Made by a program: the position numbers and the translations under genes | Notes under the pieces: model-generated | What the model was told of the DNA's origin: nothing | Databases searched by the model: none | Seen by the model: the letters and a program-made list of their open reading frames with translations, nothing else | Shown here: positions 31,101 through 62,765 of the stretch, one piece after another | Layout: every line of letters starts with the position of its first letter | Position numbering within the stretch: the stretch's first letter is position 1 | Origin: Morinoia aosen | Lineage: Eukaryota; Arthropoda; Malacostraca; Amphipoda; Talitridae | Direction: 5' to 3' | DNA length: 64,000 nucleotides | Assembly (NCBI GenBank): GCA_030386875.1 | Contig: CM059564.1 | Span: forward strand, 41,560,075-41,624,074

Positions 31101-31485
31101 CATATAATGAGTATGATCACCCTATATTAGCACGAACGAGATTTATTAAAGAAGTATTTCGAAATGACGGAAGGTTAAGCTCATAATGCATTATGACATG
31201 CAATAGAATTTTAGCATACCATGGATTATGTATGTATTCTAGTTAATTGAATTTTTCGTAATTCGTTATTGAATATTTGTATGAATGCTACGTTAAAATA
31301 TTAGGCTTGATTCAATAAGTTTAATCATTCATTGGCGCGAAAAATTTCATACCCATATAAAATTTATTTTAAAATCCTGTTGAGATAAGATTTATGGAAC
31401 TGCATCCGATACTTTTCAATAAACACTTACTTTTCGTCTGCTGCATATTGACGAAGCTTTTGAAAGAAACTTCATTATCATCAAG
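28110..31485. other. Noncoding stretch, no gene recognised
   Basis: AT-rich, with no open frame longer than about 63 codons. No RNA gene or strong repeat was detected by eye. Confidence 0.45.
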
Positions 31486-31487
31486 TT

Positions 31488-32525
31488 TTGTTTCAGCATT
31501 GGTTTTACACTCAATGGTTTGAAAGCTACCTACTAAACCGCTCTCATGCAGTGTGCTTGAATAACAAAATGTCATCATTCATACCAAACAATTTTGGCGT
31601 TCCTCAAGGTTCAATCATCGGCCCGCTCTTATTTTCAATCTTCATCAATGATTTCCCCACCATGCCGGCAAACACAAAAATCTCAATGTATGCTGACGAC
31701 GTACAAATTGCCATGACAAGCTCAACAGCAGATTTAAAAGCAACACAAGCCAACGCTGAAAACCTTCTGAGAAACCTTAAATTGTGGTATGACCATAATG
31801 GCCTCAAACTTAACGCAAGTAAAACGCAATGCATTATTTATGGATCACAGAATGAGACTAAAAATTTACCACCATTCAAGCTAACATTTGGATACGATAA
31901 AATTGAACCAGTAGAGACGGTAAAAAATTTGGGTGTTTGGTTTGACAAAAATATGACTTTCAATTCACACGTCGAAACAATGTGCAACAAAATAAACGGA
32001 ACCTTAATGTTCTTTCATCGCATTAAGAACACACTTGACGAAAAATCTAGATTGTTAGTGATTCAGTCTTTAGTTTTATCGCGCCTGGACTACTGCAGTC
32101 TTGTATGGGGAAATTTACCTCAATATCGTCAGGAAGAGTTGCAAAAATGTCTAAACTTCGCCGCCAAAGTGGTGTGCAAAGGAAATTTCAATAAATACGA
32201 TCATGTCACCCCTCTTTTAAGAAAACTCGACTGGATCCCAATACCGAACAGATTCATGATCCAAAAAGCTCGACGAGTGTTCTCCTCTCTGTACCTCCCC
32301 CAAAGTAATGCAGAGGTGGTAAATTTTTTTCCATCTAATATCCCAAACAAAAAACCAAATCGGAGGAATGATGTTTTAGTCAGTTACCGTTCATCTAACG
32401 TGGGACAAAAAGCTCTCTCAGTTTCTGAAGCTTTTTTGTGGAACAAGCTTCCCCAGCATATCAAAAACTCTAAAACTGTAAAAGAATTTAGAGTTAATGT
32501 GTCACGTCATTTTGCATCTCTATAG
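31488..32525 (+). pseudogene. LINE reverse transcriptase fragment (C-terminal half)
   Basis: Homology to RT1 starts near 31500 (TQWFESYL). FGVPQGS at residues 36-42 and YADD at 68-71 are present, but catalytic motif A and everything N-terminal is absent. The fragment therefore cannot be an active polymerase. The CR1/L2-type C-terminus ('LSRLDYCSLVWG', 'HVTPLL', 'LDWIPIP', 'FLWNKLP') is intact to a TAG at 32523-32525 with no internal stop. It diverges clearly from RT1, so the two are separate insertions or subfamilies. Confidence 0.85.
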
Positions 32526-37083: not shown

Positions 37084-40000
37084 GTATTGTCAGTGTTGTG
37101 CATGAAACCAAATGGCTTTGCTGAAAATAGATGTATAACATTTTTTCTTTTCAGTCTTCTTTTTTCCTTTATGAATGCATGTGGGGGACGTATAGGACTT
37201 ATGAGCTCTGGATAGAGTGCCTGTATGTAGGTATGCGTGTATGGATGTATGTATGTATGTACCCACCTAACTACACATATTTGTACCTACTCATATTATA
37301 GCTCTGACTGGTATATTTATTGCAGTTTCTGCTTATTGAAAGTGCCAATTTTTCATTTTATTATCTATCATAAATAGTACATAAATTGTGAGATGTGGTA
37401 AAGAGTCAGTGATTTTGGTTTAGAGTTTTTTCAAGAGGTGTTGATGCTTGCATTTTTATGGTCGTATAATTAAAAAAATATTTTGTTCCTTTAATGATGA
37501 ACACCATGAGACTGAGATATGAATCAGTTGTGATTTTTTAAATGCCTCATATTTGGTATTGAAGATAAATCTTCATGCTAAATCATTAGACAACTAATAA
37601 CTAAACTAATTTTATTCAACAAGTACTATACTTTGTGCTATTTTATGGCTACTTTGAATTGTAAACCTAATGTTATTTTCTAGTTACTTGATATCATTTT
37701 TGGATGACTTTCTATGAAACCAGCTTTGTTTAATCTATTTATTTCTTTTTCTTGTCTTCATTTTCATGTAAACACTAACTCATCAAATGAATGTTATTCC
37801 CAGAGAGAGGAAGTGATGCGGCCGTCACCCTGCGCCAGAGTGTCACATTGCCGCCAGGACCCATGCTCTACACTCGGCGTTATGCCATGCTTGCCATGTT
37901 TGCTGCGCTTGGATTTTTACAAGTAAGTGCAATGCTTAACTACCAAAGTTGCTAGGTAGTTCTTTCTGGTGAAAACCCTCAGACAGTTTTTTCAAGTAAA
38001 ATTTGATCTATGTTTTCTATTCATGCTTCTTCAATGTAGTTCTACAATGTTGAAAGTTGAAACATTGAAATCTAACCATCACTAAAACTTCAAATTTAAC
38101 AAGTTCACTGCATTTCCATGGTTGTTAACAGTTTGTTTGGTTAGGTTATAACTAGTACAATAGGGAAATGGGCTTTAGTGCTCGAATATAATTTCATCCT
38201 TCCTCTAAGAAATATGAAAATAAATTGCATGATAACATTTCCCAATGTATAATAACAGTTATATTTTAAAAAGTTTGTGAAATAGATAAGATGTCTTTCA
38301 CTTACACCGGTACTTGAATGAGCAATTTACCGAATGGTACACATGTGGCCTAATACGCAGTGAACGTGTCAAGTTTAATTCAAATCTAATATCACGAAAA
38401 AGTATTTTTGTCAAAATGTTTTACCCATGCTTGCATTTAGTGTGCAGTTTGGAACACGTGGGGCCCCATAGCATCAACAGCACAGCAAGCCTACCCTGCT
38501 TTCACCCCAAGCAACATTGCCACCCTCGCCATCTGGGGGCCTGTGACCTGCCTCTCTGGTACCCTTTTCTGCACCATGCTCATCCAAAAGCGAGGTGCGC
38601 TCTGCCACTCTCTCATGTCTTTGGGTGTGCTGGTAGTTCATAGCAAGACATTGTGAGACAGTCTTTGGTTTGGGTCCTGGCTCAGAAAGACTGTTTGTGA
38701 GGTACCTAGTGTGTCGAGAAAAGGAAATTTGCGTGAAGTGTAAGTATAGCAGTGTAGGTGTGTTTTATAGGGAATCTTAGGCCATAACACAGGCCCAAGT
38801 GTATATCGACCCATGCATTTGAGTGCAAGGCTCGAGCAAATGACACAGATGCTTCAAGAGTCTTTGAGCTTTTTGTTCACTAAAAACTTGGCAATTATTA
38901 AGGTACAAATGAAATTATGCAAGATAGATGTTTTGATTAAGCTTTGGTTGATATTTGTTTAAAAAATGGCTACCAAAAACAGAATGCAGGCCTAATCTTT
39001 TGTATCTGTAGACCTGCAGAAAAAGTATGGGGATCAGATCTCCTTCATTCTCTTGTGTATCCTTGAGTAACCTTTCAAATAAATGCATGCCAGAGAGAAG
39101 CAATGATTTGTAAGCATGACTTCAAAAAACTTAGCACAAAGTTACGTGTGACTGATTTATTTTGTATGATTTTGAGGTTATGGTAATTATGGTTTTGACT
39201 TCTGTATTGTTGCACCTTAAAATTTATGATCCACCCTTCATCCAAGGCATTTCCAAGTTTACTTATGATAAGCAGAATTCATATGGACAAACATGGGTTT
39301 GCATTAATTGCTGAGAAAAGTATATCATGATAGCAGTTTATTTTAAAGGCCCAATGCTGTGCCTCTCTTCTGGAACTCAATGTAAAGTGTTCATCAAAGT
39401 ATATATGTTCTGTAGTTTTTGCCGGTAATTGGATTTTTAGTCACTAGGGTATTCATGAGCGTCAGTTTTGTTGCAGGGCTGCGGCAAACGATGATCATCT
39501 CAACGTTAATGATGGCAGCCGGCACGTCATTGCGCTGTCTCTCCCAGGACCCCGAGGTCTTCATCATGTACGTACTGGTTGCTGTTTCTATTGACTTGTA
39601 GGCTATATTTATAATGTTGGGAAAAATGCACTGGTAGGTACTTATACTTGATGGCTCGTTTGTGGATGTGACTGTCATTTTTACTCTTGTGCTTGTGCGT
39701 AATAGGTGTTTGACAACGTGGCATTTGTGTAGTAACCTGAGAAAGAGCCTCTTTGTTAGTTCATGTTAACATAATCTATGTTTTTGAAGGACTGATAATT
39801 TTGCTAGTGTGCTTTAGTGGCTCGTATGCTTGTTAGTTTGATACCGTTCAGTCGTTCACACGCAGCTCTCATTGGTCATAAAGATTGCTCCGCATCTGGT
39901 AACACTAGAAAGTTGACAGATGTGACCATGGGCCACCTGATTCAACATTTTACAGGTGGTTCAATATTTACTTCGAGGAGACTTAAACACTGGTCTAGCG

Positions 40001-43000
40001 CGCCTTTTGTTGTTCCACATATGTGATGAAAATTTTTGTTTGTACGTAATTCACTTGTGTCAATTCGTTCATTAACAAAAGTTGTTTGCAGCATGGCACA
40101 CTTTGGAGCAATATTGAACGGGTTTGCGGGTGTGGTGGTGGGCATTGCGCCGGCACTGGTGTCTTCCTTGTGGTTCCCCGTCTCCTTCCGCACCACTGCC
40201 ACCAGTAAGACTTGATCTTTGTAGTGTCCTATGTGAGGGCCCGAGCTAAAGGTTAAGTAGGCTTTCTTTTTGTTAAAATAACATAGGTTTTTGTTTTGTT
40301 ACGGACCATCTTTTTTTGGTTCACTGCTGTCCTGTTTTTCAGCACCTACTACTTTCTTCTTCAACTTTTTCTTGTTTCATGATATTCTTTCTTAGCTTTC
40401 TGTTTTTGTGCCCTTTCTGCATAGATTCTGCGTTTTCTTAACTCCATACTAAATGGTGGCTTCTTCCTTCCTCTCTTTGGATAGCCTTTGTTGCAGATAG
40501 GGAGGCTTAAACTAACTAATAATCTAATCTAATCTTTGTAGTGTCACGTGTTGGGTGTTTGCTAATGGTGTTTGTTTTTTGCTGCTTCGTTAATGTAGTG
40601 CGCTGTCAGGGTCTTCTAGGAAGAAAAAGTTGTCTGTGTTTGTTCTCATCATCAGATGAGAAGTTTTTTAATATTCTCAGAAAAATATTAGGTTATTGAT
40701 GAGTAACTCGGTGTTACAGGTTCTTAAAGTCCGTTGTTACATTTTATTACTCTTGTAACTATTGTATTTAATGATACATTTTATTGCTCTTGTAACTATT
40801 GTATTTAATGAGATATTTTATTGCTCTTGTAACTATTGTATTTATTGATAAATTTTATTGCTCTTGTAACTATTGTATTTATTGATCCTGTTCTCTCTTC
40901 ATCTCGAAGTATTGACGATAGTACCGTAACCAACGCCGATATTACAATAGTAATGTAATCAATGAAACGACGACAGTCAAAAATATGTTTTAGACAAATT
41001 TTGCTTCTACAGATGGGTTTGATTCTGTAATGAAGTCAATTACTGGAACTCATGATGCAAAAAATGTTTGCCTTTTTTTCTTTATGTGACTTTCACAGTT
41101 ACTTGTATGATTTACTGTGCATGCCATGTACTGGTTTTATCCCTAAACCTTGTTTGTTTTTGGTTTAGCCTTCTGATACTCTTTGAGCATATTCGTTGTG
41201 GTAAGGGAGGCTAAACTAATTTGTAATCAATCAATCCCTCAATCGCCTTCTGTTAACAGGCATTGGCTGCACTTTCAACCAACTTGGAAACGCCGGCGGT
41301 TTCTTCTTAGGTCCGTACATGGTGCAGTCTCTGCATCGCGTTGCTAAGCAGCAGCAAGAGGCAGCTGAACTTCAGAACGAAGTACAGAGCAGCGTCAAGA
41401 CTTCAACTCTAAATGCCAGCCTTGGTGACGGTCTGTTTCATAGCCTCAGCAATGTGAGTTCCAGTCATTTGACTCGCGCCAGCACTAACAAAGCAACACT
41501 CGCCAATTTCACGCTGGAGCAAACAAGTACAACAGCCTGGAACTTGCCATACGGCGAGCGGCTGCACAGTTTAGTGCTCGATGGGAGCATTTCGCTAAAC
41601 GAATCTGTGTCGCCCGAGGAGCAGAAGCTGCTGCAGCACTACATCTCAAACTATATGTTTGTTGGTACGTGGTGTTTCTTCAAATTCTATTATCAGGGAT
41701 GACATTGAAATACCAAACCAAAACATAACGGCCAAAAAGCCCCGTAAACGAAGATTCAATGATAGATGTAGTGTTTTCCGAGGTTTCTTATATTTTTGGG
41801 GGATAATTTCAACATTTATGCCTACACCGCATTGCCTATTTTTTTGCTTTGCGACTTGCGTGTCCGTACCTACTTGCCTTTACAAAAAGATTGCATTGAA
41901 AACTATTAGTTAACTTTTTCTCTCTTTGAAGTATTTAGTATAATACACTTCGGAAAACTTATCTTGAGTCGATTCTAATTCATTAAAACATCGATCTTGC
42001 ATTCAATGTTTATACATTTACTGTATTTATTTAAAGAAGTTGTGAATGCTTCATTTTTTCAGTATCAGAACTTATAATTTATGAAATTATTTCCTTAGCG
42101 TTTAAGTTAAGAGAAAAATAATTTGAAAGAGAAGGTGTTCTTAATTATGTTGGTGTTCTTTTCCCAAATTGACCTGTTGATTCTTGATGTCAATGCTTCC
42201 TGGGAGCGATCTCTATTGCTTGGGGCCAGAGGGTCCCCATGGGTCGTGGTCTTGTGCACGCTTCATAGAGCTTAGTTGGTGCAACTCTGAAGCTAGCCTT
42301 CATAAAATTTCACCCTCCAGATCTCTCTCAACAGATTTCTTCTGAGAGTATTGAGTAGCCTTTCATCTATAATATTAATAGTGCTCTGTTTGTACATTAC
42401 GCCTACACTAGTCACACAGAGATAAATAAGGCAGCAATTTACCGGGTTAGCTATCATTTGGTTATAAAATCTTGATTCTAAAGTTAGAAAAGGTAAGTTA
42501 GTTAATTGAACAGGCTAACACGAAATACTCAGAAAATAAAATACCTTCATCTTTTTAGAAAATAGCCTTTTTTTACTGCTACGTTCATTAACTACACCTT
42601 GTGTCACCAGTGGCAGAAAAATTACCTTTTTCCCTGCTCCACCCATTAACTGCACCTTGTGTCACCAGTGGCAGAAAAATTACCTTTGTCCCTGCTCCGT
42701 CCATTGACTGCCCCTTGTGTCACCAGTGGCAGAAAAATTACCTTTGTCCCTGCTCCGTCCATTGACTGCACCTTGTGTCACCAGTGGCAGAAAAATTACC
42801 TTTGTCCCTGCTCCGTCCATTGACTGCACCTTGTGTCACCAGTGGCAGAAAAATTACCTTTGTCCCTGCTCCGTCCATTGACTGCACCTTGTGTCACCAG
42901 TGGCAGAAAAATTACCTTTGTCCCTGCTCCGTCCATTGACTGCACCTTGTGTCACCAGTGGCAGAAAAATTACCTTTTTCCCTGCTCCACCCATTAACTG

Positions 43001-46000
43001 CACCTTGTGTCACCAGTGGCAGAAAAATTACCTTTTTCCCTGCTCCACCCATTAACTGCACCTTGTGTCACCAGTGGCAGAAAAATTACCTTTTTGCCTG
43101 CTCCGTCCATTGACTGCACCTTGTGTCACCAGTGGCAGAAAAATTACCTTTTTCCCTGCTCCACCCATTAACTGCACCTTGTGTCACCAGTGGCAGAAAA
43201 ATTACCTTTTTCCCTGCTCCACCCATTAACTGCACCTTGTGTCACCAGTGGCAGAAAAATTACCTTTTTCCCTGCTCCACCCATTAACTGCACCTTGTGT
43301 CACCAGTGGAAGAAAAATTACCTTTTCCCTGCTCCGTCCATTAACTGCACCTTGCGTCACCAGTGGCATCCATTAACTGCACCTCATGTCCCCAGTGGCG
43401 GGCATATGCATAGCGCTGCTGATCCTGGTGGTGGCGTACTTTGAGGACGAGCCGCCGTCGCCGCCCACGCTACCCGTCCTGGAGATCCTGTCGAGCTCGG
43501 GCCGCTCCGGCCTGCACTCGCAGTCGTGGCGCGGCCGCTCCGTCGCCTCCCGCACCGATGTTGCCCGCACCCGCCCCCTCACTGAGACGCTCAGGCTCAC
43601 TGTTATCCCGCTCAGGTGGGTGCTGGTCCGCTGCTGCTGTGGTTAGCTTTGGTTGTGCTGTGGTTAGCTTTGGTTGTGCTGTGGTGAACTTCTGCTGTGC
43701 TGTGGTAAGATTTTGCTGTGCTGTGGTTAGCTTTTGCTGTGCTGTGGTAAGCTTTTGCTGTGCTGTGGTAAGCTTCTGCTGTGCTGTGGTAAGCTTCTGC
43801 TGTGCTGTGGTAAGCTTCTGCTGTGCTGTGGTAAGCTTCTGCTGTGCTGTGGTAAGCTTCTGCTGTGCTGTGGTAAGCTTCTGCTGTGCTGTGGTAAGCT
43901 TTTGCTGTGCTGTGGTAAGCTTCTGCTGTGGTGAGGCAGCTTATGTGATGTGGTCATGGAAATTTCTGTTGTGCGGGGGTAAACTTTTTACTGTTCAGTG
44001 GTATACCTTTGCGGTCCTGTGGTAAATTTCAGCTATAAAGAGTCAAAAAATGTCACAAAGTATTTTTCATCCAGTTGGTCTTGTACTGAGTGTACACTGT
44101 ATATCTGCATTGCTGTCTAAAGACTTGACCCTCTCAACTCTGATTTCTTCAATATACCTCTTCTCCTCAGCTACCGAGCCAAATATCGGAAAATTGACTC
44201 ACCCGAGACCTAATAATTTATGACTTTATCATTGAGCTTCTATTTTTAAATATGTACTATGGGTTGAAGGCAAGCCTTATCTCACCCTTTTACGGGTTAC
44301 GTAATTATTGGCTTGCAGTGCACCTATTCATCCGAGATCATCGGATTCAGTGTGTTAATAAACTTGATAAAGGTACATTTGGCAATTCGGTTGTAAACCT
44401 TTCGTACATTTATACTGCAATCTAAAAACCCACTGATGTTACAACCGCTTGTTTTTAATGATGAAGTTATTTTACGCGGAAGTTTCTGTCCAAGTGTCAG
44501 TTAAGAGTTGCTTTCTGTGAGCAGGAATGGGTCGTTCCTGGTGATGCTGCTGGCGTACAGCATCACTCTGGGCATCAACGTGGCCTGGTCCAGCATGCTG
44601 GAGATCAACCTGAGCCCCCTCGGTGTATCGCAGGTCTGTGCTTTCCCCGCACACGAGCGCAAGCAATTTGGCTTACTTTGCTATTTCCCTGTGCACTTCC
44701 TTTAGTTGGTTGCACAAGCTTAGTTGCGCCCTAGTGAAACGGGTACACGTGTTGGCACGGGCATGTTGTGCGGTTGGATTCAGAAAATCTTGGCTTGACA
44801 GATCAGGTCATAGGTATCTCAAATGTCAAACTTAATCAACACGAATTGATAGCACGATCACTGTTAATGGTTGCAATTTTCTGCATTGCTTACTAAAAGT
44901 GACTTTAAATTTGAGTTAAAAACTAAACGTCAGTTTTACCCACCTCAGTCAAAGTGTTAAATAGAACAATAGAACAAACACGTTTGTTCAATAAAGCTTG
45001 TTTGTTGCTACAGGAAACAGCGAGCTGGATAGGAGTGTACGTGACGTTTGGAGGCGTGATGCTGGCTCTGCTCACAGCACGCTTGTCTGACCTGCTCTTC
45101 GGGCACCTCAAAATCACCATCTTGTGCCTCATGCTGGCTGCCACGGTCGCCTTTGTGTGGTTCCTCCTGCTCGTTGTTGGACACATCCCCTTCTCGTCCT
45201 GTGAGTGAGACTATCTTCTCCACTCTGGTCCCCTCAGGGGATACAACTATTGTATCTATGGGAATTAGCGCTCCTAAGAGGGAAAATGTGTGAGGGCCCG
45301 AGCTGGGAGTTTGGTAGGCCTTTTTTGTCTAAATAAAATGTTTTTTGTTATGTTGAATACCACATTATTTCAATTCACTGCTGTCCTGTTTTTCAGCACC
45401 TACTACTATGTTCTTCAACTTTTATCTTGTTTCATAAACTTCTTTCTCAATTTACTGTTTCTATGCCTCTTATGCATAGATTCTGCATTCCCTTATCTCC
45501 ATACCAAATGGTGCCTTCCTCTCATTGAAATGCGTTTTTAGAGGTTTGAGAGGCTTTAAACTAAGATCTAATCAAATCTCTACTGTCATCGAAAGTGGCA
45601 GAGAAACTCCGCAGGTTTTGCTGGTCGTATGGGAGGCCAGCATGGTGGGTGTTGTTGATGACAGTGACGCGTTTGTCCGTCGCAGTGCAGGTGTTAGTTA
45701 AAAGTGCTGCTATGGTTGAAACTACAAGAATGTTAATTGAAAATGTTGATGACAATAAAATACAAATTTTGTTTGAAAAAAGAATGACATCACTGATCTG
45801 TGAGAAATTGGCCCCCTTTAAATCTTATAAGGTACAATCTACTTGTGAAAAAACCCAACTCTGCGTTTTAGAACCCAACTCTGTGTACCTACAAACCATT
45901 CAGACTACGGAAACTTTGATAAGTAAAGTCGACATATCAAGCAAAAAGCACTAATAATACTAACATAACTACCACCCCTTGAGGGTATACAGATTTTGTA

Positions 46001-47951
46001 TTTCAAGAATTAGCACTCAACGGTGAAAGTGTGAAGTCCCGAGGTAAGAGCTAATTAATTAGTCAACCTTTTTGGTTAAAGTAAATAGTTTGTTTCTTTA
46101 GGACCGTCTTTTTTTGGTTCACTGCTGTCTTATTTTTAAGCTTTTACTGCTTCTTCAACTTCTGTCTTGTTTTGTAAATTTTTTGCCCTGCTTATCTTAC
46201 TGTTTCTATGCTCAAGAGATCTAGCGCGGAAGTACACTTACGACATCGATTCTGTGCTTCCATAACTCCACTCTATATGGGGCCTTCATCCTACCATTCA
46301 TGAAACCCAGTAAAGTGTGAACATTTCATAAAAGCATTTAAAATATAAGAATGATGCGAGTGATTTCTTGATGTCCTTCAGAAATGACGGTGGCCGATAA
46401 AGGGTTACACTAACCTGAAATCTAATCTCATACTCGAAGTATCTCTAAGAATAATAAGTAGCCACCTGAACATAAGAATAATATAATCTCATACTCCACC
46501 TATTGCTAACTATAAGTAGCCACCTGATCATATAAAAAATGTTATCTTATACACCACCTACTGAGAATAATAAGTAGCCACCTGAACATAAGAATAATAT
46601 AATCTCATACTCCACCTCCTAATAAGATGGCATGCAGTATTGTGTTGCTCAGGGGCTCCCTGGCTTATTGCTTGCTTTTAACTGTAAATATTTGTTGTGC
46701 TTGTGGTTATATTTTAAATATACCTGAATATGATGTTTGACAATTGTGATCAGCTCAAAGAAATAGACCTGTAATAGTAGTAGGAGCAGGGTGAACATAT
46801 CGCTCATTGGGAAGAATAACGTCATAAGTCAAAATTTTGGAAAATTGACTTCTCCATACTGTTAAATTCGCCATTTCATTCTACGTATTTTAGTAAAACC
46901 GTCATAACTGTACCTTCTAAATTGACCGAGAGAAAGAATTCTTTTTTCGATCAAAACTAATCCCGTGAAGCAGTTTGCAAAGTTAAATTCGCTTCTAAAG
47001 AATTTCAAGCGTAAAAAAATGTGATATAATATCTGTTACAGGGCAGGTGCAAGTTAGCGCAGCGCTGGCAGGCTCCCTCAACTACGCTGTGTCTCCGCTC
47101 TTCTTTGAGCTGGGCATGGAGCTTGGCTATCCTGCTCCTGAGGACGTGCTGGGCAGCATCATGAACTTCGCCTGGAACACGGCCGGGCTGTTGTGTCTCT
47201 TCTCCATGCAGGTAACTGGTGCCTGGAGCACAGCCGGGCTGTTGTGTCTCTTCTCCATGCAGGTAACTGGTGTCTGGAACACTGCCGTGCTGTTGTGTCT
47301 CTTCTCCATGCAGGTAACTGGTGTCTGGAACACTGCCGGGCTGTTGTGTCTCTTCTCCATGCAGGTAACTGGTGTCTGGAACACTGCCGGGTTGTTGAGT
47401 CTTTTCCATTTTGCTAACTGGCGGTCGGAGAAATAAAGCTCAAGTTACCGTAGCTCAGTTAAACTTTGCTTATTTGTGATGTGAAGCTAGTACTTCACGT
47501 CAACTTGCGGTTATCATGAAACTTGCTTTTGATCCCGATATAGCTCCCGACGGGAAATGAAATTTCAACAAGATCTCCAATTATTTTATTCTCTCTGTTA
47601 TGGAAGTCTGATTGCAACATCATTTGAATGCGGTTTTTTGCTCTACAGCAACAAAACTCAGACATCAACTCGGTGAAGGTGATGGACTACATGCTCGTGG
47701 GCCAAGGCGTGCTGGTGGTGTTGTTGCTGCTCTTCGTCAAGGAGGAATACAGACGCTCTGGTCCTCAGAAAACAGAGGAGATACGCTCGACCATGAGACG
47801 TGGCCGTGTTGAGGAAGACGAGGAGTCAGGGTACGTGGTGAGCGATGACAGTGACGAGGATTTGCAAGAAGCTCCCCGTGTGCGGCTGCTGGCGGACTCC
47901 AGCTCAGAGGACGGTGGTCGCGACAATCCTGCTCTCAGTGTGCAATCATGA
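36996..47951 (+). CDS. SLC49A4: SLC49A4 (DIRC2)-like lysosomal MFS transporter, 11 exons
   Basis: The gene encodes a predicted 12-helix major facilitator protein of the SLC49 family. Vertebrate SLC49A4/DIRC2 is a lysosomal membrane protein reported to export pyridoxine with protons; substrate here is inferred. Eleven exons join with consistent phases into 652 codons plus stop, all introns GT...AG. Family landmarks are VWNTWGP at 72-78 in TM1, IWGP at 100-103 in TM2, GTSLRCL at 136-142, ILNGFAG at 158-164, N-x-x-GN-A-GG near 195-202, VSQ at 431-433, PLFFEL in TM10 and a final helix before KEEYRR. The start ATG (ggccATGG, good Kozak context) follows an in-frame TGA 12 nt upstream. Human SLC49A4 is about 478 residues; the extra length is in the luminal loop (about 215-318), the central linker (341-396) and the acidic tail. 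Minisatellites abut several splice sites. Confidence 0.9.
37804..37922 (+). CDS. SLC49A4: SLC49A4-like exon 2 (into TM1)
   Basis: The acceptor is ttattcccag and the donor CAA|GTAAGT (phase 0). It encodes residues 30-69, including YTRRYAMLAMF, which corresponds to the basic-then-hydrophobic start of TM1 in SLC49A4. Confidence 0.9.
38118..38392 (+). repeat. Dispersed repeat family B, copy 1 (intron 2)
   Basis: Homologous to 59236-59556. Shared pieces are 'ttgttaaca', 'ggttaggttata', 'gctcgaat', 'aatggtacacatgtg', 'ctaatacgc' and 'gtgtcaa'. No coding capacity or termini are evident, and the class is unknown. Confidence 0.6.
38441..38594 (+). CDS. SLC49A4: SLC49A4-like exon 3 (TM1 end, TM2)
   Basis: The acceptor is gcatttag and the donor CGAG|GTGCGC (phase 1). 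It encodes residues 70-120 plus one base: VWNTWGP, the following loop, and TM2 with IWGP, ending at IQKR. Confidence 0.95.
39477..39567 (+). CDS. SLC49A4: SLC49A4-like exon 4 (TM3)
   Basis: The acceptor is tttgttgcag and the donor ATCAT|GTACGT (phase 2). It encodes GLRQTMIISTLMMAAGTSLRC and following residues. The RGLR after TM2 and the GTxLRC end of TM3 match the family. Confidence 0.95.
40092..40204 (+). CDS. SLC49A4: SLC49A4-like exon 5 (TM4)
   Basis: The acceptor is gttgtttgcag and the donor ACCA|GTAAGA (phase 1). It encodes residues 152-188 with AILNGFAG, TM4 and the cytosolic SLWFPVSFRTTAT loop that corresponds to the STTWF...ERATAT loop of vertebrate SLC49A4. Confidence 0.95.
40228..40535 (+). 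repeat. Dispersed retroposon family A, copy 1 (intron 5)
   Basis: It runs from 'gtgagggcccgagctaaagg' to an 'aatctaatctaatc' tail, lacking the first 60 bp seen in copies at 45231 and 57618. The CCTGTTTTTCAG acceptor-like block is present. The shape, with a constant body and short repeat tail, suggests a SINE or LINE 3' end. Confidence 0.65.
40730..40890. repeat. 41-bp tandem repeat, 4 copies (intron 5)
   Basis: The unit is 'acattttattgctcttgtaa' followed by 'ctattgtatttaatgat'. The copies are nearly identical. Confidence 0.85.
41140..41235 (+). repeat. Family A 3'-end fragment (intron 5)
   Basis: The sequence 'ttgtggtaagggaggctaaac' followed by an aatc-type tail matches the 3' end of family A copies. 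The body is missing. Confidence 0.45.
41260..41664 (+). CDS. SLC49A4: SLC49A4-like exon 6 (TM5, long luminal loop)
   Basis: The acceptor is ctgttaacag and the donor GTTG|GTACGT (phase 1). It encodes residues 190-323. TM5 has NQLGNAGGFFLGP. A loop of about 100 residues follows (about 215-318), rich in Gln, Ser and Thr, with four N-glycosylation sequons at N240, N253, N271 and N302. The vertebrate protein has a shorter glycosylated loop here that is cleaved by lysosomal protease. The exon ends as TM6 begins (YMFV). Confidence 0.9.
42585..43395 (+). repeat. 58-bp minisatellite carrying the intron 6 acceptor, 14 copies
   Basis: Each unit contains a pyrimidine-rich tract (tttttccctgctcc), a branch-point-like ATTAAC or ATTGAC, and tgtcaccag|TGGC. 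The true exon 7 acceptor, catgtccccag|TGGC, is the last degenerate unit, 32-36 bp after the fourteenth. Two unit types (ccattaac and ccattgac) alternate in blocks. Confidence 0.9.
43396..43615 (+). CDS. SLC49A4: SLC49A4-like exon 7 (TM6, cytosolic linker)
   Basis: The acceptor is tgtccccag and the donor CTCAG|GTGGGT (phase 2). It encodes TM6 (AGICIALLILVVAYF, residues 325-339), then EDEPPSPP, matching the YFPPRPPLPP segment of human SLC49A4. A GC-rich, Ser/Arg-rich linker then runs to 396. The exon is much more GC-rich than its introns. Confidence 0.9.
43625..43940 (+). repeat. 21-bp minisatellite at start of intron 7, about 14 copies
   Basis: The unit 'gctgtgctgtggtaagcttct' begins about 10-20 bp after the exon 7 donor. 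Most units carry GTG|GTAAGC, a better match to the 5' splice consensus than the assigned GTGGGT site. Long repetitive open frames on both strands are artefacts of the array. Confidence 0.9.
44525..44633 (+). CDS. SLC49A4: SLC49A4-like exon 8 (TM7)
   Basis: The acceptor is ctgtgagcag and the donor TCGCAG|GTCTGT (phase 0). It encodes residues 398-433: FLVMLLAYSITLGINVAW, then a loop ending GVSQ, the counterpart of HVSQ in vertebrates. Confidence 0.95.
44830..44960 (+). repeat. Dispersed repeat family C, copy 1 (intron 8)
   Basis: A 3' part shared with 49215-49441, 56385-56600 and 58818-59049, ending 'cagttttaccc..gcagtcaaagtgttaa'. It stops about 50 bp before the exon 9 acceptor. Confidence 0.55.
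45014..45200 (+). CDS. SLC49A4: SLC49A4-like exon 9 (TM8-TM9)
   Basis: The acceptor is ttgctacag and the donor TCCT|GTGAGT (phase 1). It encodes residues 434-495: SWIGVYVTFGGVMLALLTAR, then a short cytosolic turn (LSDLLFGHLK) and the hydrophobic TM9. Confidence 0.95.
45231..45578 (+). repeat. Dispersed retroposon family A, copy 2 (intron 9)
   Basis: A complete-looking unit: palindromic CCCTCAGGG head, 'aactattgtatctatggg', 'gagggcccgagc', CCTGTTTTTCAG, then 'aaactaagatctaatcaaat' as tail. It is sense-oriented to the gene. Confidence 0.7.
45976..46435 (+). repeat. Dispersed retroposon family A, copy 3 (intron 9, diverged)
   Basis: It begins CCCTTGAGGG with the 'gggaattagc'-type stretch altered, keeps 'gttcactgctgtct', and ends 'ctgaaatctaatctcata'. 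It appears internally enlarged by an insertion near 46225-46380. Confidence 0.6.
46430..46625. repeat. About 60-65 bp tandem repeat, 3 copies (intron 9)
   Basis: Each unit carries 'aagtagccacctgaacata', 'agaataatataatctcatac' and 'tccacct'. Confidence 0.8.
46630..46784 (+). repeat. Dispersed repeat family D, copy 1 (intron 9)
   Basis: About 155 bp, closely matching 49714-49867. It runs from 'gcatgcagtattgtgttgct' to 'gacctgtaatagtagta'. The terminal TAG/TAGTA run may be a SINE-type tail. Confidence 0.7.
47042..47211 (+). CDS. SLC49A4: SLC49A4-like exon 10 (TM10-TM11)
   Basis: The acceptor is tctgttacag and the donor ATGCAG|GTAACT (phase 0). It encodes residues 497-552: TM10 ending SPLFFELGMELGYPAPE (compare IFFELFVETVYPVPE in vertebrates), then TM11 ending LLCLFSMQ. 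Its last segment and donor are repeated downstream, so the exon end could be 51, 102 or 153 nt later without changing frame. The shortest form best fits family length. Confidence 0.9.
47167..47400 (+). repeat. 51-bp tandem repeat of the exon 10 end and donor
   Basis: Units begin GTAACTGG at 47212, 47263, 47314 and 47365 and end CTCTTCTCCATGCAG. The first copy is exon sequence. 51 is a multiple of 3 and no in-frame stop occurs, so the frame stays open through to 47436. Each unit is bounded by donor-like GTAACT and acceptor-like pyrimidine tract plus CAG. Confidence 0.92.
47649..47951 (+). CDS. SLC49A4: SLC49A4-like exon 11 (TM12, tail, stop)
   Basis: The acceptor is tgctctacag, phase 0. It encodes residues 553-652: a luminal loop, TM12 (MLVGQGVLVVLLLLFV), KEEYRR like the REEYDR-type end of the family, and a long acidic, Ser-rich cytosolic tail (EEDEESG, DDSDEDL, SSSEDGG) absent from the human protein. 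TGA is at 47949-47951. Confidence 0.93.
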   Translation, partial: QQNSDINSVKVMDYMLVGQGVLVVLLLLFVKEEYRRSGPQKTEEIRSTMRRGRVEEDEESGYVVSDDSDEDLQEAPRVRLLADSSSEDGGRDNPALSVQS

Positions 47952-48032
47952 CCTCCTGGGAGGGTAGTTAAGCGATCCTGACCGCCTGGGAGGGTAGTTG
48001 AGCAATCCTGACCGGCTGGAAGGGTAGTCAGG
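47949..48032 (+). repeat. 30-bp tandem repeat starting at the stop codon, 3 copies
   Basis: The unit TGACCGCCTGGGAGGGTAG plus 11 bases begins at the stop codon and recurs at 47979 and 48009. Because 30 is a multiple of three, the in-frame TGA recurs in each copy. Confidence 0.85.
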
Positions 48033-53159: not shown

Positions 53160-53655
53160 TCGTTAAATTTTCAAGTCGTAAGTCGAGTTCAAGTCGCCAG
53201 TCGAGTTTTCAAGTCGCCAGTCGAGTTTTCAAGTCGCCAGTCGAGTTTTCAAGTCGCCAGTCGAGTTATCAAGTCGTCAGTCGAGTTTTCAAGTCGCCAG
53301 TCGAGTTATCAAGTCGTCAGTCGAGTTATCAAGTCGTCAGTCGAGTTTTCAAGTCGCCAGTCGAGTTTTCAAGTCGCCAGTCGAGTTTTCAAGTCGCCAG
53401 TCGAGTTTTCAAGTCGCCAGTCGAGTTTTCAAGTCGCCAGTCGAGTTTTCAAGTCGTCGGTCGAGTTTTCAAGTCGTCAGTCGAGTTATCAAGTCGTCAG
53501 TCGAGTTATCAAGTCGTCAGTCGAGTTATCAAGTCGTCGGTCGAGTTATCAAATCGTCGGTCGAGTTATCAAGTCGTCGGTCGAGTTATCAAGTCGTCGG
53601 TCGAGTTATCAAGTCGTCGGTCGAGTTATCAAGTCGTCTGTCGAGTTTCTGAGTT
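53160..53655. repeat. 20-bp minisatellite, about 24 copies
   Basis: The unit is AAGTCGCCAGTCGAGTTTTC. Variants are spatially sorted, with CGCCAG...TTTTC units mostly in the 5' half and CGTCGG...TTATC units in the 3' half. The 181-codon open frame across it, rich in SSRQSSFQV, is a repeat artefact. Confidence 0.92.
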
Positions 53656-61650: not shown

Positions 61651-61779
61651 GTTAGGTTCGTCGTGAGATCTCTCGCATTCCGCCCACCTGTTGTTCGTTT
61701 TGGTGTCCAGTCCATCTATAATTTGCAAAGTTCACTGGTGGTGAGTCATTGTGCGTTTCTCAGAATCCCTACTTAGTCC

Positions 61780-62655
61780 AGCGCTCGCATATACTACAGT
61801 GTCTATACATAGTCCAGTGTCTACACATACTACAGTGTCCATGCATAGTCCAGTGTCCACACCTACTACAGTGTCTATGCATAGTCCAGTGTCCGCACAT
61901 ACTACAGTGTCTATACATAGTCCAGCGCGCGCATATACTACAGTGTCTATACATAGTCCAGTGTCTACACATACTACAGTGTCCATGCATAGTCCAGTGT
62001 CCACACATACTACAGTGTCTATACATAGTCCAGTGTCCGCACATACTACAGTGTCTATACATAGTCCAGCGCTCGCATATACTACAGTGTCTATACATAG
62101 TCCAGTGTCTACACATACTACAGTGTCCATGCATAGTCCAGTGTCCACACATACTACAGTGTCTATACATAGTCCAGTGTCCGCACATACTACAGTGTCT
62201 ATACATAGTCCAGTGTCTACACATACTACAGTGTCTATACATAGTCCAGTGTCCACACATACCACAGTGTCTATACATAGTCCAGCGCTCACATACACTA
62301 CAGTGTCTATACATAGTCCAGTGTCTACACATACTACAGTGTCTATGCATAATCCAGTGTCCACACATACTACAGTGTCTATACATAGTCCAGTGTCCGC
62401 ACATACTACAGTGTCTATACAAAGTCCAGTGTCCGCACATACTACAGTGTATATACATAGTCCAGTGTCCGCACATACTACAGTGTCTATACATAGTCCA
62501 GTGTCCGCACATACTACAGTGTCCATACAAAGTCCAGTGTCCGCACATACTACAGTGTCTATACATAGTCCAGTGTCCACACATCCTACAGTGTCTATAC
62601 ATAGTCCAGTGTCCACACATCCTACAGTGTCTATACATAGTCCAGTGTCCGCACA
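61780..62655. repeat. 36-bp minisatellite with 144-bp higher-order repeat
   Basis: About 24 units built from two related 18-bp halves, 'ctacagtgtctatacata' and 'gtccagtgtccacacata'. Variant units with 'gcgctcgcatata' recur at about 61781, 61925 and 62069 (144 bp, four units) and then at 62285. Frames of up to 384 codons on both strands arise because 36 is divisible by three and the unit lacks stops in several frames. Confidence 0.93.
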
Positions 62656-62765
62656 TACTACAGTGCTATACACAGTACAGTGCTCACACAGTACAGTGCT
62701 CACACAGTACAGTGCTCACACAGTACAGTGCTCACACAGTATAGTGCCCACACACACAGTACAGA
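62656..62765. repeat. 16-bp minisatellite, about 6 copies
   Basis: The unit 'acagtacagtgctcac' follows directly on the 36-bp array and shares its 'acagtg' core, so it is probably derived from it. Confidence 0.85.

Follow-up and report, generated by a model that had tools for sequence, protein, structure and literature searches.

Tandem repeats that carry splice signals have been described in several genomes. Human UBC and VCX3A contain tandem arrays of dual-specific splice sites; in UBC, in-frame splicing occurs stochastically in 228-nt steps, its usage was shown by reverse transcription PCR, and such splicing was proposed as a source of new introns (PMC10809524). A human minisatellite that supplies multiple splice donors is also in print (Turri et al. 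1995). Intron gain via tandem duplication of AGGT (the Rogers model) has been described, as has the case of potato RdRp (PMC4974935), and novel introns are said to arise from human tandem repeats located at exon-intron boundaries (PMC2812944). Two new introns of fission yeast are reported within 24-nt repeats of SPOG_01682/SOCG_00815, where the site named is AGGC, not AGGT, and where the spliced expressed sequence tag of one gene differs from the annotated intron (PMC3629103). The recursive-splicing ratchet points of Drosophila are conserved and lie predominantly in long introns (PMC8605326). Here we analysed a 64-kb stretch of Morinoia aosen contig CM059564.1 (the window), in which an array of 51-bp units crosses the splice donor that ends the penultimate coding exon of a transporter gene. 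This array is likely a tolerated minisatellite that has grown across the splice site, with competition among the donors that it carries.

Tandem copies across the exon end

Tandem Repeats Finder (TRF) reported the array at 47172–47406 (period 51, 4.6 copies, 94% matches). Four near-identical 51-bp copies occupy 47172–47375 on the plus strand and cross the end of the penultimate exon, with pairwise differences at 1–3 of the 51 nt. A first-pass annotation of this DNA had described the exon end and its 5′ splice site as tandemly repeated, and both the TRF result and the motif positions confirmed this. Within 47001–47500, GTAACT starts at 47212, 47263, 47314, and 47365 exactly, and a search of the plus strand of the whole window found CAGGTAACT at those four places only. 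The four donors are identical 9-mers (CAG|GTAACT), and copies 1–4 are identical across the 25 nt 5′ and the 10 nt 3′ of the exon end. All differences among these copies are confined to unit positions 6, 10, 15, and 51. Copy 1 (47172–47222; donor 47212) comprises the final 40 exonic nt plus the 11 nt up to copy 2. Copy 2 (47223–47273; donor 47263) is alone in having G at unit position 6 and A at position 10, copy 3 (47274–47324; donor 47314) is alone in having T at position 15, and copy 4 (47325–47375) carries donor 47365. The duplicated segment is not purely exonic: the full unit is composed of 40 nt from the exon end and 11 nt from the beginning of the intron.

The first-pass annotation had listed the four intact donors and had overlooked a fifth, decayed copy, which runs from 47376 to about 47422 on the plus strand. 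In a gapped alignment with copy 4, 40 of 48 aligned columns match, with two 1-nt gaps (columns counted by eye). TG|CT replaces AG|GT in copy 5, which can thus be neither donor nor acceptor, and AG|GT is found at the same unit position in four of the five copies. Because copy 5 is more diverged than the others, the first duplication probably predates the expansion that yielded copies 2–4, although exchange among copies prevents the duplications from being dated. The proposal that the event was caught early suits copies 2–4 but suits the decayed fifth copy less well. The decay of copy 5 suggests that loss of the innermost donor cost little.

The intervals 47212–47262, 47263–47313, and 47314–47364 are 51 nt each, start with GT, and end with CAG behind a tract of 13 pyrimidines in 16 nt, as the first-pass annotation had stated. 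When scored with vertebrate-type weight matrices, all four array donors reached 9.03, which is third among the nine donors of the gene (the higher two being 9.94 and 9.43). The internal acceptors of the array scored 11.59, compared with 2.25–9.05 for the ten modelled acceptors. When acceptor and donor scores were summed, the four array sites (20.62) were at the top of the 368 AG|GT sites that the two strands of the window contain, and the next-best site (20.56) was on the minus strand. Two controls temper this ranking: an AG|GT scoring 20.6 or more occurred at least once in 9 of 60 windows simulated with the same dinucleotide steps, and three of the four AG|GT exon ends of the gene scored 7.93 or more as acceptors. 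Judged by these scores, the array site is good but not extraordinary, and its AG|GT sites can reasonably be called candidate dual-specific splice sites. Elsewhere in the gene, donor 43616, which follows the exon that ends at 43615, likewise has strong acceptor-like character and is the third distinct AG|GT among the 368 by summed score (19.18).

Ten coding exons of the host gene were modelled on the plus strand at 37804–47951, and together they encode a 622-residue protein in one frame. This product matched MFS_1 of Pfam (E = 3.9e-12), and, among solved structures, FLVCR2 (best E = 1.1e-15) and FLVCR1 chains (1.1e-07). Because the MFS_1 domain and similarity to these SLC49 members are both present, the predicted product is an SLC49/FLVCR-like MFS transporter. 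The start of the protein resembles that of SLC49A4/DIRC2, the member to which it may correspond. SLC49A4/DIRC2 has been described as a lysosomal pyridoxine exporter (PMC9719028). An upstream exon may have been missed by the model, so that "exon 10" is the count of the first-pass annotation, and we refer to the exon in question as the next-to-last coding exon. This exon (47042–47211) ends in array copy 1 and encodes ...GSIMNFAWNTAGLLCLFSMQ; the one-frame exon model, collinearity with FLVCR2, and a hydrophobic peak all point to it. It is followed by the modelled host intron, which is 437 nt from the first donor (47212–47648) and would be 386, 335, or 284 nt from donors 2, 3, or 4 (by subtraction), and by the last coding exon including the stop codon (47649–47951), whose acceptor has the top score among the ten modelled acceptors. 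The nine modelled introns of the gene range from 380 to 1841 nt. The segment encoded by the penultimate exon forms the last hydrophobic peak but one in the protein, in which ten distinct peaks rather than twelve exceed the threshold (ties merged); its presumed label, transmembrane segment 11 (TM11), comes from its next-to-last rank in a 12-TM family. No Rfam family reached its gathering score anywhere in the window. A 30-bp array (47942–48028, 2.9 copies) starts 7 nt upstream of the gene's stop codon, and its second copy repeats the same-frame TGA at 47979–47981 (by eye).

The direct splice of 47211 to 47649 gives a product whose alignment with FLVCR2 passes across the junction, where it has a gap of one residue and lacks any 17-residue insert. 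Since this product is collinear with FLVCR2, the direct-junction protein is, by this alignment, the ancestral form, and the inserts are derived. The three GT...CAG intervals on the plus strand, here called U1 (47212–47262), U2 (47263–47313), and U3 (47314–47364), would add VTGAWSTAGLLCLFSMQ, VTGVWNTAVLLCLFSMQ, and VTGVWNTAGLLCLFSMQ, respectively, if retained. All three 17-residue inserts are hydrophobic (mean hydropathy 1.05–1.32), and one retained insert produces one further hydrophobic peak in the protein. The transporter frame continues through all units, read-through of the intron stops at 47434–47436, and every combination of units keeps the frame, as the unit length is a multiple of 3. 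The unit sequences differ, so that all eight possible subsets of retained units are distinct and distinguishable. Donor choice alone suffices for the subsets none, U1, U1+U2, and U1+U2+U3, whereas U2, U3, U1+U3, and U2+U3 would need excision of a unit-length intron.

The first-pass annotation had regarded each unit as a candidate mini-intron. Formally, the units are GT...AG intervals, but they appear poorly equipped for 51-nt excision: no YTNAY branch motif was found within a unit, where the sole TNAY is the TAAC of the unit's own donor. In contrast, the host intron has CTGAT (YTNAY) 37 nt upstream of its acceptor. Excision of a single unit was set aside as a likely route for lack of a branch motif in the unit. 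An internal donor places its TAAC 47 nt ahead of the next CAG, and removal of two or three units would therefore be better equipped than removal of one (102 nt better than 51 nt). Splicing has been reported for human introns as short as 43, 49, and 56 nt (PMC4463651), so length alone is no bar to unit excision. The only intron backed by protein collinearity is 437 nt long and thus no multiple of 51, and introns of unit length are hypothetical.

Chance expectation and neighbouring minisatellites

The duplication itself is not in doubt, and several of the features stressed in the first-pass annotation follow from it. A tandem unit that contains AGGT is automatically a GT...AG interval. It had also been emphasized that no stop interrupts the units and that 51 is a multiple of 3. 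Both statements hold for all combinations of units, but once the segment was duplicated they amount to no more than chance: stops are absent from five of the six frames over the four copies, and of 20,000 simulated 51-nt units (40 exonic nt and GT fixed, nine random intronic nt), 88% were stop-free. Among the minisatellites of period 15 or more in the window, 10 of 27 have a period divisible by 3. The open frame was therefore rejected as coding evidence, and the period divisible by 3, a property shared by those 10 arrays, was likewise rejected as evidence.

For these tallies, 42 TRF rows were merged by hand into 29 arrays, which make up 9.5% of the window, and a single period was kept where TRF gave several; omission of two arrays of period 4 left the 27 used for the period count. 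Two of the 19 modelled splice junctions lie inside arrays. Random placement (20,000 placements) over the whole window gave a mean of 1.82 (P for at least two = 0.52), and placement restricted to the gene span gave a mean of 2.98 (P for at least two = 0.85). An attraction of arrays to splice sites is thus unsupported: arrays cover the gene's junctions about as often as random placement would, which weakens the reading of the array as an intron-gain event. The second junction inside an array is acceptor 43396, which counts only because a 58-bp array was merged with an overlapping 32-bp row that reaches 43399.

This 58-bp array (42569–43399) has 13.8 copies (TRF) up to 43368, followed by the overlapping 32-bp row. 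Its unit carries CACCAG|TGG, which resembles the region around the genuine acceptor of the 43396 exon, and it contains 14 acceptor-like sites scoring 3.22–4.98, compared with 5.35 for the real acceptor; use of any of them would introduce at least one stop. A 21-bp array (43630–43930) begins 14 nt past donor 43616, the donor of the exon with acceptor 43396, and holds ten GTG|GTAAG sites scoring 8.25–8.57, compared with 9.94 for the real donor, all of them behind an in-frame stop. Arrays thus lie at or beside the splice sites of this gene regardless of frame, which favours accident over design. The 58-bp and 21-bp arrays are not frame-compatible, as expected if landing ignores frame.

The window is rich in such arrays, including large minisatellites at 53168–53648 (20 bp × 24) and 61770–62690 (36 bp × 26). 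In addition, 31464–32525 holds a 353-residue open frame with a YADDVQI stretch, which resembles, by eye, part of a retrotransposon reverse transcriptase.

Explanations for the array

We consider it likely that a tolerated minisatellite spans the 5′ splice site and that its donors compete. Ordinary slippage or unequal exchange in a minisatellite-rich region would have produced the array. The gene now holds four identical donors at a spacing of 51 nt, and an acceptor-like sequence adjoins each of them. Most transcripts would join 47211 to 47649 and encode the ancestral protein. A minority may use donor 2, 3, or 4, which would place one to three hydrophobic in-frame 17-residue inserts after TM11 (+17, +34, or +51). 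It is less likely that units are cut out as mini-introns, and two or three together would be more plausible than one. The array would be tolerated because the first donor still yields normal mRNA, and any regulatory role would be putative. Several points weigh against this explanation. The weight matrices behind the splice-site scores are vertebrate-type and were not fitted to this organism. The random placement ignores selection against arrays on splice sites, so that a real excess could be hidden. Donor usage and any copy-number variation are conjectural, the data being the DNA of one window from one species. Finally, the retention of intact donors and frame by three extra copies could reflect selection.

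A passive version, in which donor 47212 alone is used and copies 2–5 are inert intron sequence, is possible, although we give it limited weight. It agrees with the ancestral protein obtained from the direct junction and with the lost donor of copy 5. However, donors 2–4 do not differ from donor 1 in the 9-mer or in the preceding 25 nt, and exclusive use of the first donor would need an extra cause. Because this version overlaps the tolerated minisatellite as its passive end, our degrees of confidence do not sum to one. It is unlikely that the AG|GT sites work as both donors and acceptors, with units of 51, 102, or 153 nt removed stochastically or stepwise in a recursive-splicing-like manner to give an in-frame isoform ladder and an intermediate of intron gain. 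The best joint acceptor and donor signal in the window, a unit length that is a multiple of 3, and the short spliced human introns would speak for such an array. Against these stand the unit without YTNAY, the modelled introns of the gene with their 380–1841 nt, the simulated windows that reach a joint score of the same height, and an acceptor-likeness that is not peculiar to this exon end. More doubtful still is a live dual-specific ladder derived from a working 5′ splice site, in which 102- or 153-nt (even 51-nt) units would be excised, with each internal donor also serving as branch site for the acceptor one unit downstream, giving intron gain within a TM segment with every intermediate in frame. 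A selected switch between length isoforms, whose inserts would alter the packing or topology of TM11–TM12, is very improbable: the hydrophobic inserts and the peak that one of them adds would suit it, but frame and openness are expected by chance, and an extra near-TM segment would more probably break a 12-TM transporter. We give the least credence to an assembly artefact of the repeat, since the private letters in copies 1, 2, and 3 and the decayed end copy are unlike a simple duplication error.

An active array would represent a natural stage on the way from repeat expansion to intron gain, and its copy-specific sequence tags would let ordinary RNA reads separate donor competition from unit excision. 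If inactive, it shows how far a gene can tolerate repeats over a splice site while the outermost donor works.

Comparison with described systems

In UBC, as here, tandem units are joined at AG|GT and have a length that is a multiple of 3, so that the frame is kept, which at this locus is expected by chance. The UBC units are 228 nt and comprise whole protein modules, whereas those of the array are 51 nt, lie across an existing exon-intron junction in a membrane segment, and are putative in their use for splicing. An array of the UBC type would have spliced introns with a length that is a multiple of the unit, which the 437-nt intron supported here by collinearity does not have. The human minisatellite with multiple donors, which reportedly lies at an exon end in gene 6-16/IFI6, is similar in that a minisatellite multiplies the 5′ splice site; an exon-end tandem repeat whose unit contains the donor is what we found at this locus. 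In contrast to 6-16/IFI6, the 51-nt unit has a pyrimidine tract and is thus a candidate acceptor too, in another gene of another organism.

Intron gain by AGGT duplication, which the first-pass annotation had invoked, is established as background in print, but the array is not its classic exonic case. In the Rogers model, the duplicated segment is exonic, whereas the unit here straddles an existing junction and includes 11 nt of existing intron and a working donor. The multi-copy 24-nt repeats reported from fission yeast are similar in form to the 51-bp array. Common to the duplication-gain cases and the array are repeats with splice signals by an exon edge that are able to become introns. The ratchet points of Drosophila resemble the array in that an acceptor is joined directly to a donor, a likeness seen here in the sequence as scored with the vertebrate-type matrices; splicing at ratchet points regenerates the donor. 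They differ in lying in long introns, whereas the steps here are 51 nt in a 437-nt intron. By its sequence, the array is thus a further case of a known phenomenon, distinguished by a unit that reaches across a pre-existing donor and is located within a membrane segment.

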